From Actinomycetota bacterium (GTDB taxonomy: Bacteria > Actinomycetota > Acidimicrobiia > Acidimicrobiales > Ilumatobacteraceae), in the NCBI GenBank assembly GCA_009702755.1, contig WLHL01000009.1, positions 1 through 52,574 of the forward strand: DNA of 52,574 bases. The letters run 5' to 3'. Made by a program: the position numbers and the translations under genes. A model generated the notes under the pieces. The model saw nothing but the letters and a program-made list of their open reading frames with translations, was not told the DNA's origin and did no database searches. This document shows positions 30,752 to 52,574 of this stretch, piece by piece. Within the stretch, counting starts at the first letter, position 1. Each line of letters starts with the position of its first letter.

Positions 30752-31651
30752 CTAGTACGCAGGCCCATCAATCACGATCGAATGCGCATCCCTAGGCGCA
30801 ACCACCAAATGGCACAGAGCCAAGAACATTGAGACGGCCCCGATGATGTGGGCTGCCACAAGGACCACGGGAACTCCGGTGAAGTACTGGGTGTATCCGA
30901 TTGCCCCTTGCGCTACCGCTACAACGAGCAATGCAGAAATTGCTTCAGTGAAGTCACTGCTGGAACGCTGTCGTCGATCCAGCAATGCGAGGGCCACTAT
31001 CAATGCGACAAAGATCAGAACTGTTACCCCGTGAATACGTGCAACGGAAGGAAGGGCAAATCCGAATCGAACAGCATCCTCTGAGCCTGCGTGAGGTCCG
31101 GTCGCAGTCACGACTGTGCCGGTCACAATCGCCGTCACGCCAGCAATTGAAAGCGCGATGACCAAACCCTTCAGCCGAGAGGGAATGCTCCTAAAGAATG
31201 AAGTCGGTGCACTAGTTCCACTACGGCGATACAACATGAAGGCACACGCGATGAGGACCATCGAAACCAAGAAGTGCGCCATGTTCGCGTATGGGTTCAG
31301 GCCCGTCAGTACAACAACTCCACCAATCACAATCTGAGCAAGCACTCCCAGGACAAGACTCCACGACAGCCACACCAAATCTGAACGCCGGGGAGATCGG
31401 CGGTGAGAAAGCAATACCGCAGCCATCACACTGAAAGAAACCACACCAGTGAACAATCTGTTTCCTTGCTCGATGGCGGTGTGACCTGAGGAGACATCAA
31501 TGAACTGTGTGTCATTACAGTTCGGCCAGTCCACACAACCGAGTCCCGACCCTGTCAGACGGACCAGGGCACCCGTGAAAACAATGACGCACAACGACCC
31601 CAAGGCGGTACCGCAGACAATGCTGTAAGACTTTCCACTGAGACGCGCCAT
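30752..31651 (-). CDS. ctaA: Heme A synthase (CtaA/COX15 family)
   Basis: Oxidises heme O to heme A for aa3-type cytochrome oxidase, so it implies aerobic respiration. 299 residues with eight membrane segments. The extracellular Cys pair CVDWPNC follows TM1. EQGNRLFTG corresponds to the EFGNR motif seen in actinobacterial CtaA, and heme-ligand His residues lie in NMAHFLV, ARIHGVT and VAAHIIG. ATG at 31651 is chosen over a longer frame: TACTGT lies 7 bases upstream and the extra residues are Cys/His-rich and not family-like. Divergent from the lipocalin-like gene. Confidence 0.93.
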   Translation of the reverse strand: MARLSGKSYSIVCGTALGSLCVIVFTGALVRLTGSGLGCVDWPNCNDTQFIDVSSGHTAIEQGNRLFTGVVSFSVMAAVLLSHRRSPRRSDLVWLSWSLVLGVLAQIVIGGVVVLTGLNPYANMAHFLVSMVLIACAFMLYRRSGTSAPTSFFRSIPSRLKGLVIALSIAGVTAIVTGTVVTATGPHAGSEDAVRFGFALPSVARIHGVTVLIFVALIVALALLDRRQRSSSDFTEAISALLVVAVAQGAIGYTQYFTGVPVVLVAAHIIGAVSMFLALCHLVVAPRDAHSIVIDGPAY

Positions 31652-31658
31652 ACCTTGA

Positions 31659-31719
31659 ACAGTAGGTGTCGATGGCGTCCCGTGCCACTTGGTACAGAGC
31701 ACTAAAGAATGACTACGGT
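31659..31719. promoter_or_regulatory. Divergent promoters of ctaA (-) and lipocalin-like gene (+)
   Basis: Minus strand TACTGT (31664-31659) ends 7 bases before the ctaA ATG. Plus strand TACGGT (31714-31719) ends 7 bases before the ATG at 31727. Both fit the TAnnnT leaderless pattern. Confidence 0.45.
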
Positions 31720-31726
31720 CACAGTC

Positions 31727-32845
31727 ATGATCACATCGTTTGACGACTATCCGATCCATCAGACCTCGGAACCAATTGCTCACCCAGAAAGTGGTGACCC
31801 TGGGCATTATGACCGCTACTTCTTTAATGGATACAGCAAAGACGGATCACTTTTCTTCGCAGTCGCTATGGGGTTGTACCCGAATCGACATGTCATGGAT
31901 GCATCCTTCAGTGTCGTAGTCAATGGCGAACAGATCAGCGCACATGCCTCAGCCAAGGCTCCTCATGACCGTTTGCAATGCAACCAAGTCGGCCCCATTG
32001 GCATCGAGATCATCACTCCAATGAAGGAACATCGCATCAGTGTGGATACTCCTGAACATGGTTTACGAGCAGAGTTGACATTCACTGCAACGTCGCTTCC
32101 CTACGAGGAACCACCATTCATGGTGCGAGCAGGTAACCGCGTCACGATGCGCTACACACGGTTGACGCAACTAGGAAAGTGGAACGGCTGGCTGGAAGTT
32201 GACGGGGTGCGACACGAAGTCAATGAGTCGATCTTTGTAGGGTCGCGAGACCGTTCATGGGGTATTCGAGGTGTCGGAGAACGAGTGCAACTTGGTGCAC
32301 CTGTGACTCATATGCCGCAGTTCTTTTGGCTGTGGGCCCCGGTTTGCTTCGACGGGTTTGGAACCTTGTTTGACGTCAACGAGTACGCAGACGGTGAAAG
32401 ATGGCATGAATCCGGCGTCATGCTCGTCGGAGATGACACGATTCAGCACTCACACAATGTTGCGTACGACTATCACTGGGAGCCCGCCACTCGCCGTGCC
32501 GAATCCTTCGAACTGCGTTACACATTTGGCAAGTCCACTGCACATCTCTTATTCGAGCCGATTACTCACTTTCAAATGCTGGGTCTGGGCTATCTGCACC
32601 CTGAGTGGGGTCACGGGTTTTGGAAGGGTGACCTTGCGATAGGTGGCGAACGCTTCCCCGTCCCCGTTGCAGATCCGATGCAAATGCATCATCTGCACAC
32701 ACAAACTCTCAGCAATGTCACAATGACGATGTCGACCGGAGAAATTCATCGCGGCATAGGCATTCTCGAGACGCTTGTCCTTGGCGCCCACGTTCCGAGT
32801 GGCTTCACGGGCATGAGTGACGGTTTCAGCGCTATTTCCTCATAG
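31727..32845 (+). CDS. Lipocalin-like (CrtC/AttH-type) beta-sandwich protein of unknown function
   Basis: 372 residues, no signal peptide. Motifs such as HYDRYFFNGYSKDGSLFFAVAMGLYPNRHVMDASFSV, GSRDRSWGIRG and HPEWGHGFWKGDL recur in actinobacterial proteins that I associate with tandem AttH/CrtC-like lipocalin domains, some encoded near terpenoid or steroid genes. Binding or modification of a lipophilic molecule is plausible; no catalytic residue can be named. ATG 31727 is preferred to ATG 31709 because the -10 box falls between them. Confidence 0.75.
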   Translation: MITSFDDYPIHQTSEPIAHPESGDPGHYDRYFFNGYSKDGSLFFAVAMGLYPNRHVMDASFSVVVNGEQISAHASAKAPHDRLQCNQVGPIGIEIITPMKEHRISVDTPEHGLRAELTFTATSLPYEEPPFMVRAGNRVTMRYTRLTQLGKWNGWLEVDGVRHEVNESIFVGSRDRSWGIRGVGERVQLGAPVTHMPQFFWLWAPVCFDGFGTLFDVNEYADGERWHESGVMLVGDDTIQHSHNVAYDYHWEPATRRAESFELRYTFGKSTAHLLFEPITHFQMLGLGYLHPEWGHGFWKGDLAIGGERFPVPVADPMQMHHLHTQTLSNVTMTMSTGEIHRGIGILETLVLGAHVPSGFTGMSDGFSAISS

Positions 32846-43879: not shown

Positions 43880-44611
43880 CTATTGAGTAACAGCGGAAAT
43901 CAAGACGCTCGCACCGGACAGAAGCATCAGACCAACAACAAGTCGAGTGAATGCCTCTTCATTGACTCTCTTTCTCATTGCATATCCGATGCGCAATGTG
44001 AGTGCCAACGCAGGCAATGCAAAAGCGGCTCCGACAAGATTCTCCTGAGTCATCTTTCCGGAACCCAGAAAGAGAATCAGAGCTCCAATGTTTGCAATGG
44101 AGAACACTGTGTTCAGGGTCGCTCGAAAAGTCGCGGCATCCATCGAGCGAGATTTCAGGAGAAACACAAGTGGAGGGCCATTTGTGGACGTTGAAGTATT
44201 GAGAACACCTGAGACAAAACCAAGGACCCAGTCGTAACGCCGCGCGTTTTCAGGAATCTGAAAATTCCGCACAATCAAAACCGTGGCCACAATGACAACA
44301 GCACCGAGCCCAAATCGAAGGTTTCTCTCTGAGACGACATTGAACACGAAGAGGCCAAAGGGCATGCCGGCATAAGACATCAACGAAAGTCTGCGAACCG
44401 TCTTCCACTCCGTGAAACGTCGATCAGCAACTGCCTGGGTTGTCGTCGACACCGAGGCCACCAAGACCGAGACCACAACCGCATCCCGAGGCGAAAGGAA
44501 CAAAACCATCATGGGGACCGAGAGCAGGCTGAAGCCAAATCCGGCGAGGGACTGGGCGAAAGCCGCAATTGCGACACACACGACGATCCACAAGATTTGT
44601 TGAAGTTCCAA
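43880..44611 (-). CDS. TauE/SafE-family membrane permease
   Basis: 243 residues with about seven to eight membrane segments and the family duplication (AGFGFSLLSVPMMVLFLSP in the first half, GFVSGVLNTSTSTNGPPLVFLL in the second). The family moves sulfite, sulfonate or other organic anions. The start is TTG at 44611; no ATG precedes the first span. It is divergent from the M20 hydrolase operon with a 101-base gap, so it may be a transporter for that pathway; this is inferred from position only. Confidence 0.87.
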   Translation of the reverse strand: MELQQILWIVVCVAIAAFAQSLAGFGFSLLSVPMMVLFLSPRDAVVVSVLVASVSTTTQAVADRRFTEWKTVRRLSLMSYAGMPFGLFVFNVVSERNLRFGLGAVVIVATVLIVRNFQIPENARRYDWVLGFVSGVLNTSTSTNGPPLVFLLKSRSMDAATFRATLNTVFSIANIGALILFLGSGKMTQENLVGAAFALPALALTLRIGYAMRKRVNEEAFTRLVVGLMLLSGASVLISAVTQ

Positions 44612-44678
44612 GGGGTGACCAATCGCTGCGAGGACGTGACGAAGTTAGCCCAGAACGCCATAATCCCCGATGATTCAG

Positions 44679-44712: not shown

Positions 44713-45969
44713 GTGGTGGGTCTCACAACATCTCTCGACGTACGGGTCAATGGCAGTCGTCTATTGCAACGACTGTTCGACCTTGCTGAGATCGGCGCTA
44801 TTGATGGCGGCGGTTGCGCCCGCCTAGCCCTCACAGATGCAGACAAACTCGGCCGTGACCTCGTCATTGAATGGATGAAGGATCTCGACCTCGATATAAC
44901 CGTCGACATTGTCGGAAATGTTGTCGGAATCTGGGACGTCGGTACAGGACGTCCGGTGATGACCGGCTCCCACATCGACACAGTGCGCACCGGAGGGAAG
45001 TACGACGGCAACTACGGAGTTCTTGCCGGACTTGAAGTGATTCAGACCTGCCAAGAGATGGGCATTACTCCCCTTCATCCTTTAGCAGTTGCCTTCTTCA
45101 CCAACGAAGAGGGAGCGCGTTTTGCCCCGGACATGTTCGGTTCGCTTGTCTATGTCGGAGGACTCGGTGTTGAAGAAGCTTTAGATACCGTCGGAATCGA
45201 CGGCACTCGAGTGCGAGATGAACTGGAGCGCATCGGATACAACGGTGCAACACCGTGCCCGGGCCTATCCCCCCACGCTTTCGTTGAACTTCATATTGAA
45301 CAAGGACCAGTGCTGGAGCAGACCGGAATCACAATTGGCGCAGTGACTGGCGTTCAAGGAATCAGCTGGCAGGAAGTCACGATTGAAGGTCAAAGTAATC
45401 ACGCCGGCACCACGCCGATGTCGATGCGTCGTGATCCCGCCTATGTTGCTTCAAATATCGCAGTGTTCCTGCGTGACCTCGCAACACGATATGGCGGCCA
45501 CCAAGTGTGCACCGTCGGAAAAATTGATCTTCATCCGAATCTCGTCAATGTCGTGCCTCAACGTGCTGTTCTGACTCTTGATGTTCGCAACACAGATGAA
45601 CAGAAACTGCAAGACGCTGAAAGAGAGATTCAGGCACACTTGGATCATCTAGCAATTGAAGAAGGCGTCACCATAACGACACGCTCCTTGGCACGATTTG
45701 AACCAGTCGTTTTTGATGAACATGTCACGCAACTCATTGAGTCCATTGCTTCGCAACAGGGCAACTCAGTGTCTCGCCTCCCAAGTGGAGCTGGCCACGA
45801 TGCCCAGATGTTGGCGAGAGTGTGTCCAGCGTCCATGATTTTCGTTCCGAGTGTTGACGGGATTAGCCATAATCCCGCTGAGTTCACTTCTGCGGAAGAA
45901 CTTGAAGCGGGTGCCAACGTGCTGCTTCACACGATGATCTCACTTGCCAATACGGAGGACTTCTCATGA
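44713..45969 (+). CDS. M20-family Zn-dependent amidohydrolase (allantoate / N-carbamoyl-amino-acid amidohydrolase type)
   Basis: 418 residues, cytosolic. Metal ligands: H87 in GSHIDTV, D98 in GGKYDGNYG, the Glu pair NEEG (132-133), His in VELHIEQGP and a late His in GISHNPAEF. The sequence is closest in pattern to allantoate amidohydrolase, ureidoglycolate amidohydrolase and L-N-carbamoylase (HyuC), which release ammonia and CO2 from ureido groups; motifs alone do not separate these. First gene of a six-gene operon; a second GTG at 44716 is possible. It overlaps the next gene by 4 bases. Confidence 0.9.
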   Translation: MVGLTTSLDVRVNGSRLLQRLFDLAEIGAIDGGGCARLALTDADKLGRDLVIEWMKDLDLDITVDIVGNVVGIWDVGTGRPVMTGSHIDTVRTGGKYDGNYGVLAGLEVIQTCQEMGITPLHPLAVAFFTNEEGARFAPDMFGSLVYVGGLGVEEALDTVGIDGTRVRDELERIGYNGATPCPGLSPHAFVELHIEQGPVLEQTGITIGAVTGVQGISWQEVTIEGQSNHAGTTPMSMRRDPAYVASNIAVFLRDLATRYGGHQVCTVGKIDLHPNLVNVVPQRAVLTLDVRNTDEQKLQDAEREIQAHLDHLAIEEGVTITTRSLARFEPVVFDEHVTQLIESIASQQGNSVSRLPSGAGHDAQMLARVCPASMIFVPSVDGISHNPAEFTSAEELEAGANVLLHTMISLANTEDFS

Positions 45970-46889
45970 GTCGCATTGTTACTGTCGGCGCTGCGCAGAT
46001 GGGTCCCATCCAAAAGGATCACACGCGTAAAGAAGTTGTTGAGCGACTCATCACACTCCTGCGCCAAGGGCATCAAGCAGGCTGTGATCTCGTGGTCTTT
46101 CCCGAATTGGCTCTCACTACTTTCTTCCCACGCTGGTTCATCGACGACATCACTCAGGCTGATCACTGGTATGAGACTGAAATGCCATCTCCCGTTACAC
46201 AACCTCTCTTTGACGAGGCAAAGAAACTGAAGATTGGTTTCTGTCTCGGCTACGCGGAACTCACCACTGACGGTCATCGATTCAACACTCAAGTTCTTGT
46301 TGAACGAGATGGTTCGATTGTCGCGAAGTATCGCAAAGTTCATATTCCTGGGCACGAACACAATGAACCAGATCGCCCGTTCCAGCATGCGGAGCGCTAT
46401 TACTTCGAGCCGTCGATGGAAGGTTTCGGCGTTTGGAAAGCCTTCGGCGGCCGCCTGGGAATGATGATCTGTAACGATCGGCGTTGGCCTGAGTCCTACC
46501 GCGTCATGGGACTACAGGGAGTTGAAATGATTCTCTGTGGATACAACACCCCGATTCACTATGTTCCAGATCCAAGTCAAGACATTCTTCAGGGCTTTCA
46601 TAACTCCCTTGTGATGCAATCAGGTGCCTATCAGAACGGCAGTTGGGTCATCGGAGTCGCTAAAGGCGGAGTCGAGGAAGGGGTTGACTCACTTGGCCAA
46701 AGCATGATTGTTGCTCCATCTGGACAAATCGTTGCTCAAGCCTTTACGACCGGTGATGAACTTATTTCTGCGCGTTGTGATCTTGATTGGTGTGCGAAAT
46801 ACACCGGAACATTGTTTGACTTCGAGCGGTACCGCAGGCCCGAGGTGTACGGCCGCATTACTTCACAACGTGGAGTCGTGATCGACTGA
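45966..46889 (+). CDS. Nitrilase-superfamily carbamoylase, closely resembling N-carbamoyl-D-amino-acid hydrolase
   Basis: 307 residues. The Glu-Lys-Cys triad is E47 (VVFPELALTTFFPRW), K124 (KYRKVHIPGH) and C169 (MICNDRRWPE). Segments such as FPELALTTFFPRW, YETEMP, RPFQH, CNDRRWPE and GGYNTP-like CGYNTP match those I recall for Agrobacterium D-carbamoylase. That enzyme converts N-carbamoyl-D-amino acids to D-amino acids, ammonia and CO2. No hydantoinase is nearby, so the natural substrate may be another ureide. ATG overlaps the M20 gene by 4 bases. Confidence 0.9.
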   Translation: MSRIVTVGAAQMGPIQKDHTRKEVVERLITLLRQGHQAGCDLVVFPELALTTFFPRWFIDDITQADHWYETEMPSPVTQPLFDEAKKLKIGFCLGYAELTTDGHRFNTQVLVERDGSIVAKYRKVHIPGHEHNEPDRPFQHAERYYFEPSMEGFGVWKAFGGRLGMMICNDRRWPESYRVMGLQGVEMILCGYNTPIHYVPDPSQDILQGFHNSLVMQSGAYQNGSWVIGVAKGGVEEGVDSLGQSMIVAPSGQIVAQAFTTGDELISARCDLDWCAKYTGTLFDFERYRRPEVYGRITSQRGVVID

Positions 46890-46890
46890 T

Positions 46891-47955
46891 ATGACATTCA
46901 CCACGAATGGTCTTGTGTGTGGTCACCACCACCTCTACTCCTCGCTTGCTCGAGGCATGCCTGCCCCACCACAAACACCCAATTCGTTTATCTCCGTCCT
47001 TGAAAATGTGTGGTGGAGACTCGACGCAGCTCTTGACCTCGACATTATTTATTGGTCCGCTGCATTGGGTGCTGCTGAGGCCCTGCTGAATGGCACAACC
47101 GCGATCATTGACCACCATGAGTCTCCGTTTGCCATAGAGGGAAGTCTTGATGCGATCCAATCTGCATGCGACATGGTCGGAGTGAGCAGCAATCTCTGTT
47201 ACGGAGTGACGGACCGTTGGGTCGGACAATCGATGCAATCGCATGTTGCACCGTCATCAAAGATGTCTGATGAAGCAAGGCGAGGTCTCGCAGAGAATGA
47301 TCGATTCTTGAAGGCTGGCGGGAGAGGCATGGTCGGCGTTCACGCATCTTTCACGTGCAGCGATGAAACACTTGAAACTGCAGCCGACCTAGCAAAGCAA
47401 CACAACGTCGGTGTACACATTCATGTCGCTGAAGGGCCTGACGACATTGACGCAGGTATCCGCTTACAGAACCTGGCCGAGGACAACTGGCTCATCGTTC
47501 ATGCAGTTCATCTCGACCAGCAAATTAAAGGGACGCTTGCACATAACCCTCGTTCCAATATGAATAACTCTGTTGGCTATGCGCGCCCATCTCGTTGGGC
47601 CCACGACGTCATTCTTGGTACAGACGGAATTGGCGCAGACATGCTGGAAGAGATGCGTTTGGCATATGTACGCCACCGTGAGGACGACCTCACCGCCTCA
47701 CCTGACTCTGCCTGGTCATGGCTGAAGAACGGCGAAAAGTTCTTCCCTGAAGTCAAACGAGATGTCGTGACATGGTCCTACGACAATGCAGATAGCCCGT
47801 GGCATGTCGCCTTCACGCCAGGAATTCGTTGCCTCTCTGTTGTCCGCGATGGAACAGTCCTTGTTGAAGACGGTGTTCCAACACAGTTTGATCTGAACGA
47901 AATTCGTACGAAGGCAGCGGAAGCTGCACGGACACTCCATGAAAGGCTTGCATAA
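46891..47955 (+). CDS. ssnA: SsnA-like amidohydrolase lacking the usual N-terminal segment
   Basis: 354 residues against about 440 in SsnA/TrzA/AtzA-type aminohydrolases. The protein starts directly at TNGLVCGHHHLYSSLARG, the metal HxH (H12, H14); the roughly 60 residues that normally precede it are absent. An in-frame TGA lies 9 bases before the ATG, so no upstream extension is possible. The rest is intact: NGTTAIIDHH, HIHVAEG, HAVHLD, HNPRSNMNNSVGYA and LGTDGIGADM, as well as the C-terminal strands. SsnA has an aminohydrolase fold of unsettled substrate. Starts 1 base after the previous stop. Confidence 0.88.
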   Translation: MTFTTNGLVCGHHHLYSSLARGMPAPPQTPNSFISVLENVWWRLDAALDLDIIYWSAALGAAEALLNGTTAIIDHHESPFAIEGSLDAIQSACDMVGVSSNLCYGVTDRWVGQSMQSHVAPSSKMSDEARRGLAENDRFLKAGGRGMVGVHASFTCSDETLETAADLAKQHNVGVHIHVAEGPDDIDAGIRLQNLAEDNWLIVHAVHLDQQIKGTLAHNPRSNMNNSVGYARPSRWAHDVILGTDGIGADMLEEMRLAYVRHREDDLTASPDSAWSWLKNGEKFFPEVKRDVVTWSYDNADSPWHVAFTPGIRCLSVVRDGTVLVEDGVPTQFDLNEIRTKAAEAARTLHERLA

Positions 47956-47957
47956 AT

Positions 47958-48797
47958 ATGCCAGTTCTTATCGCGCACACAATCAGCGAAGCCACGGAGA
48001 TTCTCGCGGAGAATCCGGACGCAACAATTCTTAATGGAGGCACTGACCTCATGGTCGAGGTGAACTTCAACCATCGTCATCCCTCATCTGTACTGTTGCT
48101 CCGCAATGTGCCCCAGCTACGAGAGTGGTCAATTGACTCCTCACAGCAAACGATCACTATCGGGGCTGGTGTCCCCTATGCCGCCATGGAAACTGGAGCG
48201 ATTGCCGCTGCTGTTCCGGCACTTGCACAAGCTGCGCGCACTGTCGGATCACCGCAAATACGCGCGGCCGGCACGATGGGCGGGAACCTTGGTACCTGTT
48301 CACCAGCGGGAGACACGTTGCCCGTTCTCTCGGCACTTGAGGCAACCATTCATCTCTCATCACAAGACGGAGAACGCACAGTCCCCTTCGGTGAGTTCAT
48401 GGTAGGCCCGAAGAAAAACAGTCGGCTTCAGCATGAAATCATCACTGCTGTGACACTGCCAGTGACTGGCAATCGCCAGGGATATTCCAAAGTGGGTGTG
48501 CGCAATGCAATGGTCATCTCAGTCGCATCTGCTTGTTTTGCCATTGTTGATGACACACCTCGACTCGCCATGGGTTCTGTTGGGCCCACCATTCTTCGCG
48601 CTGTAAAGGCTGAAAAGTTCCTTGCCGAGGCGACGAAAGACCTGGACAACATCAGCGATGAGATCGCCCGCGAGTTTGGTGAGATTGCATCTACTGAGGC
48701 ACGTCCCATTGATGATCACCGATCAACTGCACAATATCGCGCTCACGCAATCAAAGTTCTTGCATCCCGTTTGGCAGTGAGAGGAACCGCATCGTGA
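47958..48797 (+). CDS. Xanthine-dehydrogenase-type FAD-binding subunit (CoxM/YgfM family)
   Basis: 279 residues. FAD-binding NGGTDLMVEV near the N terminus, then the AARTVGSPQIRAAGTMGGNLGTCSPAGD motif that defines the family, and a CO_deh_flav C-terminal domain from about 170. Passes electrons from the iron-sulfur subunit to NAD or another acceptor. Begins 2 bases after the ssnA-like stop and overlaps the next gene at GTGA. Medium subunit of a three-protein molybdenum hydroxylase. Confidence 0.93.
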   Translation: MPVLIAHTISEATEILAENPDATILNGGTDLMVEVNFNHRHPSSVLLLRNVPQLREWSIDSSQQTITIGAGVPYAAMETGAIAAAVPALAQAARTVGSPQIRAAGTMGGNLGTCSPAGDTLPVLSALEATIHLSSQDGERTVPFGEFMVGPKKNSRLQHEIITAVTLPVTGNRQGYSKVGVRNAMVISVASACFAIVDDTPRLAMGSVGPTILRAVKAEKFLAEATKDLDNISDEIAREFGEIASTEARPIDDHRSTAQYRAHAIKVLASRLAVRGTAS

Positions 48798-49282
48798 GTA
48801 CTAATGAGTTTTATTCGTTGAAGGTAAATGGAGTTGATCATCACGTTTCGGATGCATGGATCGGCGAAAGCCTTTTGTATGTCTTGCGGGAACGGCTTGG
48901 ACTTCCTGGCTCTAAGGGAGCATGTGAACAAGGCGAATGCGGCAGTTGCACTGTGTTTATTGATGGGGCCGCAGTGTGTAGTTGTCTCGTGATGGCAGCG
49001 TCCGCAGTCGAGTCAGAAATCGCAACAGTCGAAGGCCTCAATGCCGATGGCACTCTGACTGATGTACAGGAAGCTTTTGTCACTGAAGGCGCCGTGCAAT
49101 GTGGTTTCTGCACTCCTGGTCTCGTGATGGCTGTTCATCATCTGTTGGACGAGAATGATTCGCCGTCCGAACTGGAAGTGAAAGAAGCTCTTTCGGGCAA
49201 CATTTGCCGTTGTACGGGCTACGGACGCATCTTTGCTGCTGTTGACAAAGTCGTCGCTGTTCGAAGGGGCGCATTGTCATGA
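48794..49282 (+). CDS. Xanthine-dehydrogenase-type 2Fe-2S subunit (CoxS family)
   Basis: 162 residues with two 2Fe-2S clusters. The plant-type N-terminal cluster is CEQGECGSC (C44, C49, C52) with C64; the C-terminal helical cluster is CGFCTPG and CRCTGYG. All eight ligands are present, so it should be functional. GTG start overlaps the FAD gene; the TGA overlaps the large-subunit ATG. Electron bridge between Mo and FAD subunits. Confidence 0.95.
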   Translation: MSTNEFYSLKVNGVDHHVSDAWIGESLLYVLRERLGLPGSKGACEQGECGSCTVFIDGAAVCSCLVMAASAVESEIATVEGLNADGTLTDVQEAFVTEGAVQCGFCTPGLVMAVHHLLDENDSPSELEVKEALSGNICRCTGYGRIFAAVDKVVAVRRGALS

Positions 49283-51540
49283 GTTCAGTTAAAACAAAAC
49301 GTGATGTTCTCGGAACCAGTTCACTTCGTCCTGATGGCGGAGCAAAGGTAAAGGGCGACTTTGCCTTCACGTCTGATCTTCATGCAGAAAACATGCTGTG
49401 GGGCGCCACTCTTCGTTCTCCTCACCCTCACGCACGCATTGTTTCCATTGATACAACTGCTGCCTGGAAGATTGCCGGTGTCGAATGTATTGTCACGGCC
49501 GACGATGTGCCGGGCCAACTCACCTATGGACTCATCAGTTCAGACCAACCAGTGTTCGCCAAGGACGTTGTTCGGTACATGGGCGAGCCGATTGCTGCCG
49601 TTGCTGCCGACCACCCAGAGACATGTCGTCGCGCACTCGCTGCCATCACAGTTGTTTACGAAGTCCTTCCTGTCCTGTTTGATCCAGAGCTAGCCATCGG
49701 CGATGACTTTGAGCCGATTCATCCCGATGGCAACCTCATCCGTCAGCAACGAATCGTTCACGGTGATACGTCGGTCGTCGGCGATGTCATCGTTGAGGGC
49801 CACTATGTGATCGGCATGCAAGATCAAGCATTCCTCGGCACTGAATCAGCACTGGCATTGCCTGATGCCGATGGCCAAGGAGTCGAAGTATTTGTTGCGA
49901 CACAGTGGTTGCACGAAGACCAGAAGCAAATGGCGGCATGCCTCAATCTCCCAACTGAACGAGTTCGCTTGGTCCTCGGTGGCGTAGGTGGCGCCTTTGG
50001 TGCCCGTGAGGACATCAGCCTTCAAGTGCATACGGCACTTCTGGCTCTTCGTACTTCGCGCCCCGTCAAGATGCAGTACGGACGTGAAGAGAGTTTCTTT
50101 GGCCATGTTCATCGCCATCCGGCAACTGTCTGGATGCGTCACCATGCAACAAACGAGGGAAAGATTGTCAAAATCGAAGCGCGCTTCGTTTTCGACGGCG
50201 GCGCCTATGCATCGACATCAGCGGCTGTGCTGATCAATGGCGTGACCCACACCCAAGGTCCCTACAAGTGCCCTGTCGCTGTCGTCGACGGTTATGCAGT
50301 TCGAACAAATAACCCACCATGTGGAGCCATGCGCGGTTTCGGCGTTGTGCAGGCGTGTTTTGCCCATGAGGGCCAGATGGACAAACTTGCAGCAGCAGTG
50401 GGTACCGACCCTGTGAGCATCCGTTTGATGAATGCAATGGAGACCGGTGACTTGTTGATCACTGGACAGCCAGTGGAAAGCGTAGCCCCAGTGGCTCGCC
50501 TCATCCGTGAAACAAATGAGATTCCTCTTCCACCTGATCTCGCAATAGATGCAAATGAACTCGACTTGCCAGGTGGGTCAGGGATTACAGCAGAACGCAA
50601 ACACATCAGACGAGGAATCGGTTGGGGCGTCAGCATCAAGAACATCATGTACAGCGAAGGCTTTGATGATTACTCCACAGCACGATGCACTCTCAGCGAT
50701 GGCAAGGTCGTGTTGAAATTTGCGACCAGTGAAGTCGGACAAGGATTCGTCACTCTTGCTCCACAGATTGCACGATCTGTCCTGGGTGTGACAGACGCAG
50801 TATGCGACACCATTGACACCCAAATTGGTTCAGCTGGCTCTACCTCTGCATCACGTCAAACGTGGATGAGCGGCGGCGCAGTTGACGGTGCTTGCCGACT
50901 CGTGCGAGAGCGACTCTTTGAACTTGTGGGAGCACAACAGAACATCGAACCGATTCGTTTCGCCATTGAAGACGATGAGATTGTTGATACCGCCGGCACG
51001 TTCCGTATGTCAGTGATCGAAGCCAGCCAGGGCATCACCATCAGCGAGACGTTTGAACATCATCACCGCAAAACAGAGGAACTCGATGAGAATGGACAAG
51101 GAAACTGCCATGTGGCCTTTGCCTTTGTCGCCCACCGTGCCGTTGTCGATGTCGACCCTGAGTTAGGTCTGGTGAAGGTAGTCCAGATTGCAACTGCCCA
51201 AGATGTCGGGCAAGTACTGAATCCACTCTCCGTCCTGGGTCAAATCGAAGGCGGAATCGCCCAAGGACTCGGCCTTGCGGTCATGGAAGAGATCATTGTG
51301 CAAGAAGGCAGAGTGAGGAATCCAAGCTTCACCGATTACTTACTACCGACAGCGCTTGATGCACCTGTCGTTGTCGCTCGCATGATTGAGGAATACGAAC
51401 CGCAAGCACCGCTGGGCGCCAAGGGAGTCGGAGAACCGCCGTGTATCTCTGTGACACCAGCGATTGTCGCTGCCATTCGAGATGCGATTGGTAAAGACAT
51501 TGATAGGTGTCCCGTGAGACCTCAAGACATCTGCTTGTGA
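49279..51540 (+). CDS. Xanthine-dehydrogenase-family molybdenum-cofactor subunit
   Basis: 753-residue large subunit. Molybdopterin segments: GGVGGAFGAREDISLQ, MQYGREESFFGHVHRHPA, CGAMRGFGVVQ (Arg expected for purine-type substrates), EVGQGFVT and catalytic E719 in KGVGEPPC. The GHVHRHPA segment resembles PucD/XdhD-type purine dehydrogenases more than CO dehydrogenase, which would need a VAYRCSFR-type loop that is absent. Hydroxylation of a purine or other N-heterocycle is likely. Last gene of the operon; MobA-like cofactor gene lies 28 kb away in this window. Its stop is 1 base from the convergent flavoprotein. Confidence 0.92.
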   Translation: MSSVKTKRDVLGTSSLRPDGGAKVKGDFAFTSDLHAENMLWGATLRSPHPHARIVSIDTTAAWKIAGVECIVTADDVPGQLTYGLISSDQPVFAKDVVRYMGEPIAAVAADHPETCRRALAAITVVYEVLPVLFDPELAIGDDFEPIHPDGNLIRQQRIVHGDTSVVGDVIVEGHYVIGMQDQAFLGTESALALPDADGQGVEVFVATQWLHEDQKQMAACLNLPTERVRLVLGGVGGAFGAREDISLQVHTALLALRTSRPVKMQYGREESFFGHVHRHPATVWMRHHATNEGKIVKIEARFVFDGGAYASTSAAVLINGVTHTQGPYKCPVAVVDGYAVRTNNPPCGAMRGFGVVQACFAHEGQMDKLAAAVGTDPVSIRLMNAMETGDLLITGQPVESVAPVARLIRETNEIPLPPDLAIDANELDLPGGSGITAERKHIRRGIGWGVSIKNIMYSEGFDDYSTARCTLSDGKVVLKFATSEVGQGFVTLAPQIARSVLGVTDAVCDTIDTQIGSAGSTSASRQTWMSGGAVDGACRLVRERLFELVGAQQNIEPIRFAIEDDEIVDTAGTFRMSVIEASQGITISETFEHHHRKTEELDENGQGNCHVAFAFVAHRAVVDVDPELGLVKVVQIATAQDVGQVLNPLSVLGQIEGGIAQGLGLAVMEEIIVQEGRVRNPSFTDYLLPTALDAPVVVARMIEEYEPQAPLGAKGVGEPPCISVTPAIVAAIRDAIGKDIDRCPVRPQDICL

Positions 51541-51541
51541 A

Positions 51542-52574
51542 TTAAGCGCCGAAGATTCTTTCGGTGTAGCGATTGCTGAATGTTCTCTGCGGGTCAAGGC
51601 GATCCCGCATTGACAAGAAGTCGTTGAATCGTGGATACAAAGTACTTAGTTCATCTTTTTCGCGATGATGCACTTTGCCCCAGTGTGGTCGAGCGTTGTA
51701 ACGCCGCAAGATGTCTTCGACATCTTTAAAGAATGCCCCGTACTCCATCCCTTTATAGACATGGACAGCGATGTAGGCCGATTCACGCTGGTACCCGGTT
51801 GACAAGGGAACATCATCGGGCGCTGTGAACCGAACCTCAACAGGAAAGTTGAGTAGGTAGCCCTTCTTCTCCACCATCGCCCGAATTTCACGCAACGCTG
51901 GTGCAAGCGATGCTGCCGGCAACGCATGTTCCATCTCGTAGAACCTCACCAATCGAGGACTTGCAAAGATCTTGTAGCTGTCATTGATATATGTCCGTGC
52001 ACCAGACGAAGGGAGAGCAGTTGCCAAGCGTGGAATCAACGCTGGGCGCATCTTGCCTACTTTGCACACCGCACCGAACGCAAAGTTCTCCATGAAGGTC
52101 TTCTCTATCCACCCTCTGACTTTCGGCAAGGGATCAAGAGCCTCGTCGGTGCGATTGTTCCGCTTCGTTAGCGCCCACTTGGTGTGAGGAATCCAGAAGA
52201 ACTCAAAATGATCATTTGATAAACGAAGTTCATCGATGTTGTCCAGAACATCATCCAGACGCATTGGTTGTTCATGAGCATGAAGACGGAAAGCATCCAC
52301 CACTCGAATCGTGCATTCGGTGATTGCTCCGAGGGCACCTACTGACACTCGCGCGACATCAAGTATCTCTGAGTTCTTTTCGCTATTGCATTCCACGAGA
52401 TTGCCGTGACCATCCACAATGCGCATCGCAGTGACTTGCGCAGCTAGTCCGGGAAGCGCGACTCCCGTTCCATGAGTAGAAGTCGAGATTGCACCCGCAA
52501 CAGTCTGATATGCGATGTCACCGAGGTTTGCCATCGCCAGCCCTTCGACTGCAAGAAGTCGATTGAGGTCACTC
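51542..52574 (-). CDS. Aldonolactone oxidase-like FAD flavoprotein (C-terminal part; 5' end outside window)
   Basis: The visible 344 codons continue to the right edge without a stop. An ATG at 52534 is internal: upstream codons read LNRLLAVEGLAMANLGDI, which is family sequence. PCMH-type FAD segment NLGDIAYQTVAGAISTSTHGTG, then the ALO domain ending HWGKVHH, LYPRFNDFLSMRDRLDPQRTFSNRY, as in L-gulono-, D-arabinono- and alditol oxidases. The covalent-flavin His would be in the missing N terminus. Acts on sugar lactones or polyols. Convergent with the molybdenum subunit gene. Confidence 0.9.
   Translation of the reverse strand, partial: SDLNRLLAVEGLAMANLGDIAYQTVAGAISTSTHGTGVALPGLAAQVTAMRIVDGHGNLVECNSEKNSEILDVARVSVGALGAITECTIRVVDAFRLHAHEQPMRLDDVLDNIDELRLSNDHFEFFWIPHTKWALTKRNNRTDEALDPLPKVRGWIEKTFMENFAFGAVCKVGKMRPALIPRLATALPSSGARTYINDSYKIFASPRLVRFYEMEHALPAASLAPALREIRAMVEKKGYLLNFPVEVRFTAPDDVPLSTGYQRESAYIAVHVYKGMEYGAFFKDVEDILRRYNARPHWGKVHHREKDELSTLYPRFNDFLSMRDRLDPQRTFSNRYTERIFGA

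Follow-up and report, generated by a model that had tools for sequence, protein, structure and literature searches.

A six-gene operon with a probable role in reductive urate catabolism

The DNA analysed here is a 52,574-nucleotide stretch (contig WLHL01000009.1 of assembly GCA_009702755.1; called the window below) from a bacterium of the Ilumatobacteraceae, class Acidimicrobiia, phylum Actinomycetota. Six complete plus-strand open reading frames (ORFs) at 44713-51540 encode an M20 amidohydrolase, a nitrilase resembling N-carbamoyl-D-amino-acid hydrolase (DCase), an SsnA-family amidohydrolase, and the flavin adenine dinucleotide (FAD), 2Fe-2S (FeS) and molybdenum (Mo) subunits of a xanthine dehydrogenase. 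We consider it quite likely, from the genes and their distribution, that this operon is the local part of purine catabolism via urate reduction, with its enzymes partly exchanged. Gene content, gene order, co-occurrence and family assignments were observed here, and all reactions are inferred from the enzymes purified by Li et al. (2025; PMC12507026) and from enzyme class.

For E. coli and C. difficile, whose reductive pathway comprises XdhD-YgfM, YgfK/UacX, SsnA, HyuA, YgeW/UacY, YgeY and YgeX, Li et al. report that XdhD reduces urate to yanthine, that YgfK or UacX together with SsnA lead to ureidomethyl-hydantoin and HyuA to 2,3-diureidopropionate, that the 2-ureido group is removed by YgeW or UacY and the 3-ureido group by YgeY, and that YgeX yields pyruvate (PMC12507026). 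Haft and Self (2008; PMC2276186) had earlier placed selenium-dependent hydroxylases in one group with ssnA, ygfK, ygeX, ygeY and hydantoinase genes. In the pathway proposed here, the xanthine dehydrogenase of the window would make urate, a fused FeS-Mo hydroxylase (XdhD-like) encoded on contig C5 of the same genome would convert urate to yanthine (2,8-dioxopurine), and an LLM-class (F420-type) reductase encoded next to it would reduce yanthine. The window SsnA would open the ring to give ureidomethyl-hydantoin, and a D-hydantoinase encoded on contig C14 would give 2,3-diureidopropionate. The DCase would act on the D (R) isomer and take off its 2-ureido group, the M20 enzyme would remove the 3-ureido group to give 2,3-diaminopropionate, and a pyridoxal phosphate (PLP)-dependent lyase would release pyruvate and ammonia. 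This lyase would be YgeX in a few relatives and is here probably a divergent PALP-family protein encoded on contig C39. F420 use, the substrates of DCase and M20, and the PLP step are the least certain parts of the scheme.

The likeness to the E. coli and C. difficile pathway lies in the SsnA-family amidohydrolase, the xanthine dehydrogenase-family hydroxylase, the D-hydantoinase, the M20 hydrolase, the PALP-family PLP enzyme and the similar neighbourhoods. The present set differs in that YgfK/UacX gives way to an F420-type LLM reductase in most of the genomes examined, YgeW/UacY to a DCase and YgeX, in most, to a divergent PALP protein; further differences are an M20 enzyme with no match to YgeY (E 1e-10), a shorter SsnA, and an organism that has heme A synthase. 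The pairing of SsnA with a reductase of the LLM class instead of YgfK is itself known, and here the combination is found in the class Acidimicrobiia of the Actinomycetota; Li et al. list SsnA in Actinomycetota and the F420-type reductase in Chloroflexota, and the words 'carbamoylase' and 'nitrilase' each occur 0 times in the main text of that paper (PMC12507026). No described enzyme set of this kind was found among the papers listed from the open-licence literature on yanthine, on DCase with urate, diaminopropionate or ureido, on xanthine dehydrogenase with allantoate amidohydrolase and DCase, or on Acidimicrobiia or Ilumatobacteraceae with urate. The reductive urate pathway is known, and the enzyme set here appears to be a new variant of it. 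The original prediction, made from the window alone, had suggested a variant purine, ureide or hydantoin nitrogen pathway with a different ring-opening logic. It is supported in part: a variant purine or ureide pathway with a non-oxidative ring opening is favoured, and the XdhD-like hydroxylase, the reductase and the hydantoinase sit on other contigs, so that the logic of ring opening is close to that of the reductive urate pathway, with some enzymes exchanged.

Composition of the window operon

The six ORFs overlap or abut with gaps of -4, +1, +2, -4 and -4 bases, as had been described, and the protein families named at that time (M20, CN_hydrolase, SsnA-like Amidohydro_1, FAD_binding_5, Fer2/Fer2_2 and MoCoBD) are recovered. 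The M20 protein (44713-45969) belongs to the carbamoylase/allantoate-amidohydrolase subfamily, scoring 396.2 bits with TIGR01879 (cut-off 204) and 429.2 bits with NF006771 (cut-off 399), an 'allantoate amidohydrolase' subfamily model, and it contains the motifs GSHIDT, NEEG, HIEQG and SHNP. It is a member of TIGR01879 and not a YgeY-type M20: E. coli YgeY, like HyuA, YgeX, YgeW and YqeA, has zero matches in the window at E 1e-10. The nitrilase (45966-46889) belongs by sequence to the DCase family, matching nine distinct DCase sequences of the PDB, its nearest relatives of solved structure, at E <= 4.4e-101, and carries the motif CNDRRWPE; among NCBIfam models, none reaches its cut-off on this protein.

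The SsnA-family protein (46891-47955) is N-terminally short. Its best NCBIfam match is NF005540 SsnA at 250.8 bits, below the cut-off of 444, and the match starts at profile position 59, with 58 positions missing. Aligned with E. coli SsnA, it shows 38% identity, lacks about 55 N-terminal residues of that protein, and has invariant His/Asp columns in common with it, e.g., H12, H14, H176, H204 and D245, which we take to be metal ligands. The aligned relatives begin at the same position as the short window protein. In 8 of 22 loci, the reading frame meets a stop codon 1 to 7 codons upstream of the SsnA match; in others the frame stays open, for up to 279 codons. The AlphaFold2 model of the short protein has a mean pLDDT of 93.2.

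The three remaining genes encode the FAD subunit (47958-48797; FAD_binding_5, CO_deh_flav_C), the 2Fe-2S subunit (48794-49282; Fer2, Fer2_2) and the Mo subunit (49279-51540; MoCoBD) of xanthine dehydrogenase. No NCBIfam model scores over its cut-off on the SsnA, FAD or FeS proteins, and the best models for the latter two are XdhB and XdhC. The Mo subunit scores 821.5 bits with TIGR03196 pucD (cut-off 783.65). A reading of the trimeric hydroxylase as the counterpart of XdhD was rejected, because the enzyme is a xanthine dehydrogenase of the pucD type and a separate XdhD-like protein is encoded on C5.

Partner genes elsewhere in the genome

The genome of the window (1.84 Mb, 94 contigs, 85% complete) encodes the fused XdhD-like hydroxylase on C5, followed by the adjoining reductase gene. 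The hydroxylase scores 838.8 bits with TIGR03311 Se_dep_XDH (cut-off 830.45), a model that has 'selenium-dependent xanthine dehydrogenase' as its title, and is 73% identical to the hydroxylase that precedes SsnA in a sister genus. The reductase is 83% identical to that of the sister genus and nearest to F420-dependent families, none of them over its cut-off. CofE, a marker of F420 synthesis, is present in this genome and in nine of ten genomes searched, and the reductase probably uses F420. The CofD family was dropped as a marker because it also has matches in E. coli. CofD and CofE each match twice in the window's assembly (G000:C27 and G000:C70), through duplication or redundancy of the bin. 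An aminotransferase and a second nitrilase encoded after the C5 pair were set aside as pathway members, since the ORFs after the pair differ in genome G153.

The C14 protein scores 478.5 bits with TIGR02033 D-hydantoinase (cut-off 393.25), and its gene is unlinked to the operon in this genome. The claim that there is no hydantoinase is thus true of the window, where E. coli HyuA is unmatched, and not of the genome. YgeX has no match in the window or elsewhere in the genome, and the candidate lyase is the divergent PALP protein on C39. Its gene lies in the interval 7127-11109 of L222 (G000:C39:1-12574), where its neighbours encode a threonine-synthase-like PALP protein and a D-serine-dehydratase/BhcC-like PLP enzyme; the neighbours have homologues in the three further genomes that were opened. 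No match to E. coli YgeW exists in the window or in five other stretches of this genome; the whole genome was not searched for it, nor for UacY. All four members of the genus in the set carry the XdhD-like and reductase genes on one contig, and also a hydantoinase gene and the PALP gene, the latter split in G295 into two pieces on two contigs. Within the genus DCase is missing only in G295, where the SsnA match starts at base 3 of a contig.

Gene neighbourhoods of SsnA in relatives

A gene-neighbourhood search, which the original prediction had proposed as a check, was made over 80 named loci. These are the best 80 of a database scan, with no bearing on other phyla, and the counts leave out hydantoinase matches below 40% and reductase matches below 55% identity. 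All six genes occur together at 28 of the 80 related loci, many of which are clipped by contig ends, indicating that the set is not due to chance. Within the fetched DNA, SsnA is found at 80 loci, the reductase at 59, the XdhD-like gene at 56, DCase at 55, FAD at 42, FeS at 41, M20 at 40, Mo at 36, PALP at six, YgfK at four, YgeX at two and hydantoinase at one. M20 immediately precedes DCase in 39 cases. The direct upstream neighbour of SsnA is the XdhD-like gene in 46 of the 70 loci with room for it, and the direct downstream neighbour is the F420-type reductase gene in 44 of 69, which links a ring reductase to SsnA.

The arrangement M20-DCase-XdhD-SsnA-reductase-FAD-FeS-Mo is seen in sister genera (L035, L037, L038), where the pair found on C5 thus lies inside the operon. 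The six window genes together with the XdhD-like and reductase genes occur at 18 of the 80 loci, while ten of the 28 six-gene loci have no XdhD-like gene, as in the window. From these numbers the window form looks like a larger operon out of which the XdhD-reductase pair has moved.

We opened 25 SsnA neighbourhoods (20 + 5), and YgfK lies near SsnA at nine of them (L043, L046, L048-L051, L053, L226 and L228). In G196, M20-DCase-XdhD-SsnA-reductase-YgeX are consecutive within about 7.8 kb. A cluster of about 19 kb in G127 (G127:C1:663118-682053; L054 = 665500-685400) holds YgeX, hydantoinase, M20, DCase, PALP, XdhD-like, SsnA, the F420-type reductase, an 8-oxoguanine deaminase and xanthine dehydrogenase; the M20 and hydroxylase genes of this cluster are broken into pieces in different frames. 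G018 and G086 carry YgeW and YqeA beside PALP, SsnA and YgfK, and DCase and the XdhD-like gene of the other genomes are absent.

Co-occurrence across the Acidimicrobiia

An SsnA homologue (E <= 1e-30) is present in 123 of 296 genomes of the class. The co-occurrence set comprises 43 genomes, namely 35 of the 123 SsnA-positive and 8 of the 173 SsnA-negative ones; SsnA-positive G031, with two partial matches, was left out. The XdhD-like protein, the D-hydantoinase and the PALP protein are each found in 33 of the 35 SsnA-positive genomes (for PALP, the window's genome included) and DCase in 30, compared with 0 of 8 SsnA-negative genomes in every case. The F420-type reductase (E <= 1e-60) is present in 27 of the 43 genomes, all SsnA-positive, in 24 of them at >=72% identity, and a ring reductase of either kind (F420-type or neighbouring YgfK) in 33 of the 35.

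The only SsnA-positive genomes without PALP, G110 and G196, both have YgeX; G127 has both proteins. G018 and G086, the two genomes seen with YgeW and YqeA, are without DCase, which is what a replacement of YgeW by DCase and of YgeX by PALP would predict. The gene set fits a scheme in which DCase stands in for YgeW/UacY, a carbamoylase-type M20 for YgeY and a PALP protein for YgeX, and both ureido groups would then probably be removed hydrolytically, by DCase and M20. The D-specificity of DCases fits the R configuration of the ureido intermediates, which a 2025 commentary gives as proposed and unconfirmed (PMC12990295).

The Bacillus-type puc gene set serves oxidative purine catabolism, and the window resembles it in the PucD-type Mo subunit and the allantoate-amidohydrolase-like M20. 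If the pathway were oxidative, xanthine dehydrogenase would make urate, an unrecognised urate-oxidising enzyme would lead to allantoin and allantoate, and the M20 protein, which exceeds the cut-off of the 'allantoate amidohydrolase' subfamily model, would be an allantoate amidohydrolase. The window's genome, at 85% completeness, differs from the puc set in that neither uricase (PF01014) nor allantoinase (TIGR03178) was found over the cut-offs, in agreement with the earlier statement that both are missing; FAD-type urate hydroxylase and PuuD were not searched for. Each of the two was found in one of the 43 genomes, G086 in both cases. An oxidative route, moreover, leaves SsnA, the XdhD-like protein, the reductase and DCase without a role. 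We set it aside on the lack of uricase and allantoinase and regard it as improbable. G086 itself (L046, G086:C4:19000-38900; G086:C48) has an E. coli-like XdhD (42%), YgeW, YqeA, SsnA and YgfK plus uricase and allantoinase, so that the oxidative and the reductive pathway may coexist in it.

Weighing of the reductive pathway

Several observations weigh against the reductive pathway as drawn above. The first group concerns the XdhD-like hydroxylase, which is only just over the TIGR03311 cut-off. It keeps Glu/Arg/Glu at positions where the window Mo subunit has the same residues; at two of these, a Glu and the Arg, E. coli XdhD carries Gln, and the reaction may therefore run in either direction. 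Li et al. link Glu606 to yanthine formation (PMC12507026), and the comparison at this residue rests on an unreliable alignment. The same genes could thus have another entry, with the XdhD-like protein as an oxidase or acting on a different purine, and with a reduced ring for SsnA that does not come from urate. The retained Glu/Arg/Glu positions speak for such an entry, as does an 8-oxoguanine deaminase close to SsnA in L044 and L054, while the TIGR03311 match and the position of the gene next to SsnA and the reductase are in line with the published pathway. We consider another entry unlikely.

The second group concerns the other members of the urate-reducing set. The pathway genes are spread over four contigs in the window's genome, where it is not position that ties the hydantoinase and the PALP protein to the operon, but co-occurrence and, in some relatives, clustering. 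The lyase role of PALP is inferred from distribution and position, and its flanking genes may suggest a broader role in D-amino-acid metabolism. YgeX is present in just three of the 43 genomes, the window's genome not among them. For G008 and G238, the stretch that was opened shows no close F420-type reductase and no YgfK. DCase has no match in five SsnA-positive genomes, namely G295 (SsnA at a contig end), G018, G086, G075 and G117, and the last two show no visible replacement. The one-sided Fisher values of the co-occurrence (3e-7 to 9e-6) overstate its significance, because the 43 genomes are related and hand-picked.

A last point is that DCase is not tied to this pathway elsewhere. Eleven plasmid contexts of DCase were opened, and counts are over ten because one is unannotated: diaminopropionate ammonia-lyase is present in two, M20 in four, dihydropyrimidinase in four and a racemase in seven. 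Such plasmids, with DCase, M20 and dihydropyrimidinase together in some of them and a racemase in most, speak for a scavenging of hydantoins or N-carbamoyl amino acids, in which DCase and M20 would be D- and L-carbamoylases and the xanthine dehydrogenase would serve an unrelated N-heterocycle. The fixed linkage with SsnA, the XdhD-like gene and the reductase argues against scavenging, as does the presence of DCase and hydantoinase matches in 0 of 8 SsnA-negative genomes, and we hold it to be very improbable. The two contexts with the lyase, which come from outside the class, count in favour of the reductive pathway: on these plasmids, of Rhizobium sp. ACO-34A and R. daejeonense, the genes for diaminopropionate ammonia-lyase, M20 and DCase overlap one after another in this order, with a dihydropyrimidinase gene nearby. 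The M20 and DCase of ACO-34A are 57% and 56% identical to the window proteins. These Rhizobium sets resemble the window in M20 and DCase and differ in that SsnA, which is part of the window operon, has no match on a Rhizobium plasmid: the nine plasmid records matching SsnA (E <= 1e-20) are labelled Escherichia, Salmonella, Cetobacterium, Collinsella and Enterococcus.

Neighbouring genes and further observations

A match to COX15-CtaA at 30752-31807 on the minus strand confirms the heme A synthase previously noted in the window. The single promoter that had been supposed for the six genes is not established by the sequence: the scanned region holds one weak promoter-like site (44636-44664), and shuffled sequences average 4.3 such sites. 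The divergent neighbour of the operon (43880-44611, minus strand; PF01925) encodes a TauE/SafE-type membrane protein with homologues at 25 of the best 80 SsnA loci; it is a possible transporter candidate, and its membership in the system is uncertain. After the operon, a convergent gene at 51542-52573 (minus strand) encodes a D-arabinono-lactone-oxidase-like FAD oxidase, with homologues at 18 of those 80 loci. At L044 (G211:C2:131500-151400), the genes near the SsnA operon include those for an ABC transporter of the Bmp/PnrA type and for an 8-oxoguanine deaminase (537.1 bits, cut-off 532), a hint that nucleosides or oxidised purines may be taken up. The acidimicrobial operon also occurs in records titled as 'Bifidobacterium breve' metagenome-assembled genomes (L133, L144 and L146), with SsnA proteins 64-70% identical to that of the window; these titles are probably wrong.

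Implications

On balance, we lean towards the wider proposal that the reductive urate pathway of Acidimicrobiia is aerobic, depends on F420 and is hydrolytic throughout, and that (R)-2,3-diureidopropionate would be the natural substrate of its D-carbamoylase. The DCase family is known mainly from biocatalysis, and the proposal, if true, would give it a physiological role. It would also support an R configuration for the ureido intermediates, and diaminopropionate would gain a new PLP lyase. The 2025 commentary names stereochemistry and the order of ureido cleavage as two open points (PMC12990295), and a D-specific carbamoylase acting on the R isomer at the 2-ureido group would bear on both. 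The same commentary describes the reductive urate pathway as restricted to obligate or facultative anaerobes (PMC12990295); the SsnA homologues in 123 of 296 genomes of the class, here together with heme A synthase, would extend it to oxygen-respiring bacteria, as a route to purine nitrogen that keeps the C3 core as pyruvate.

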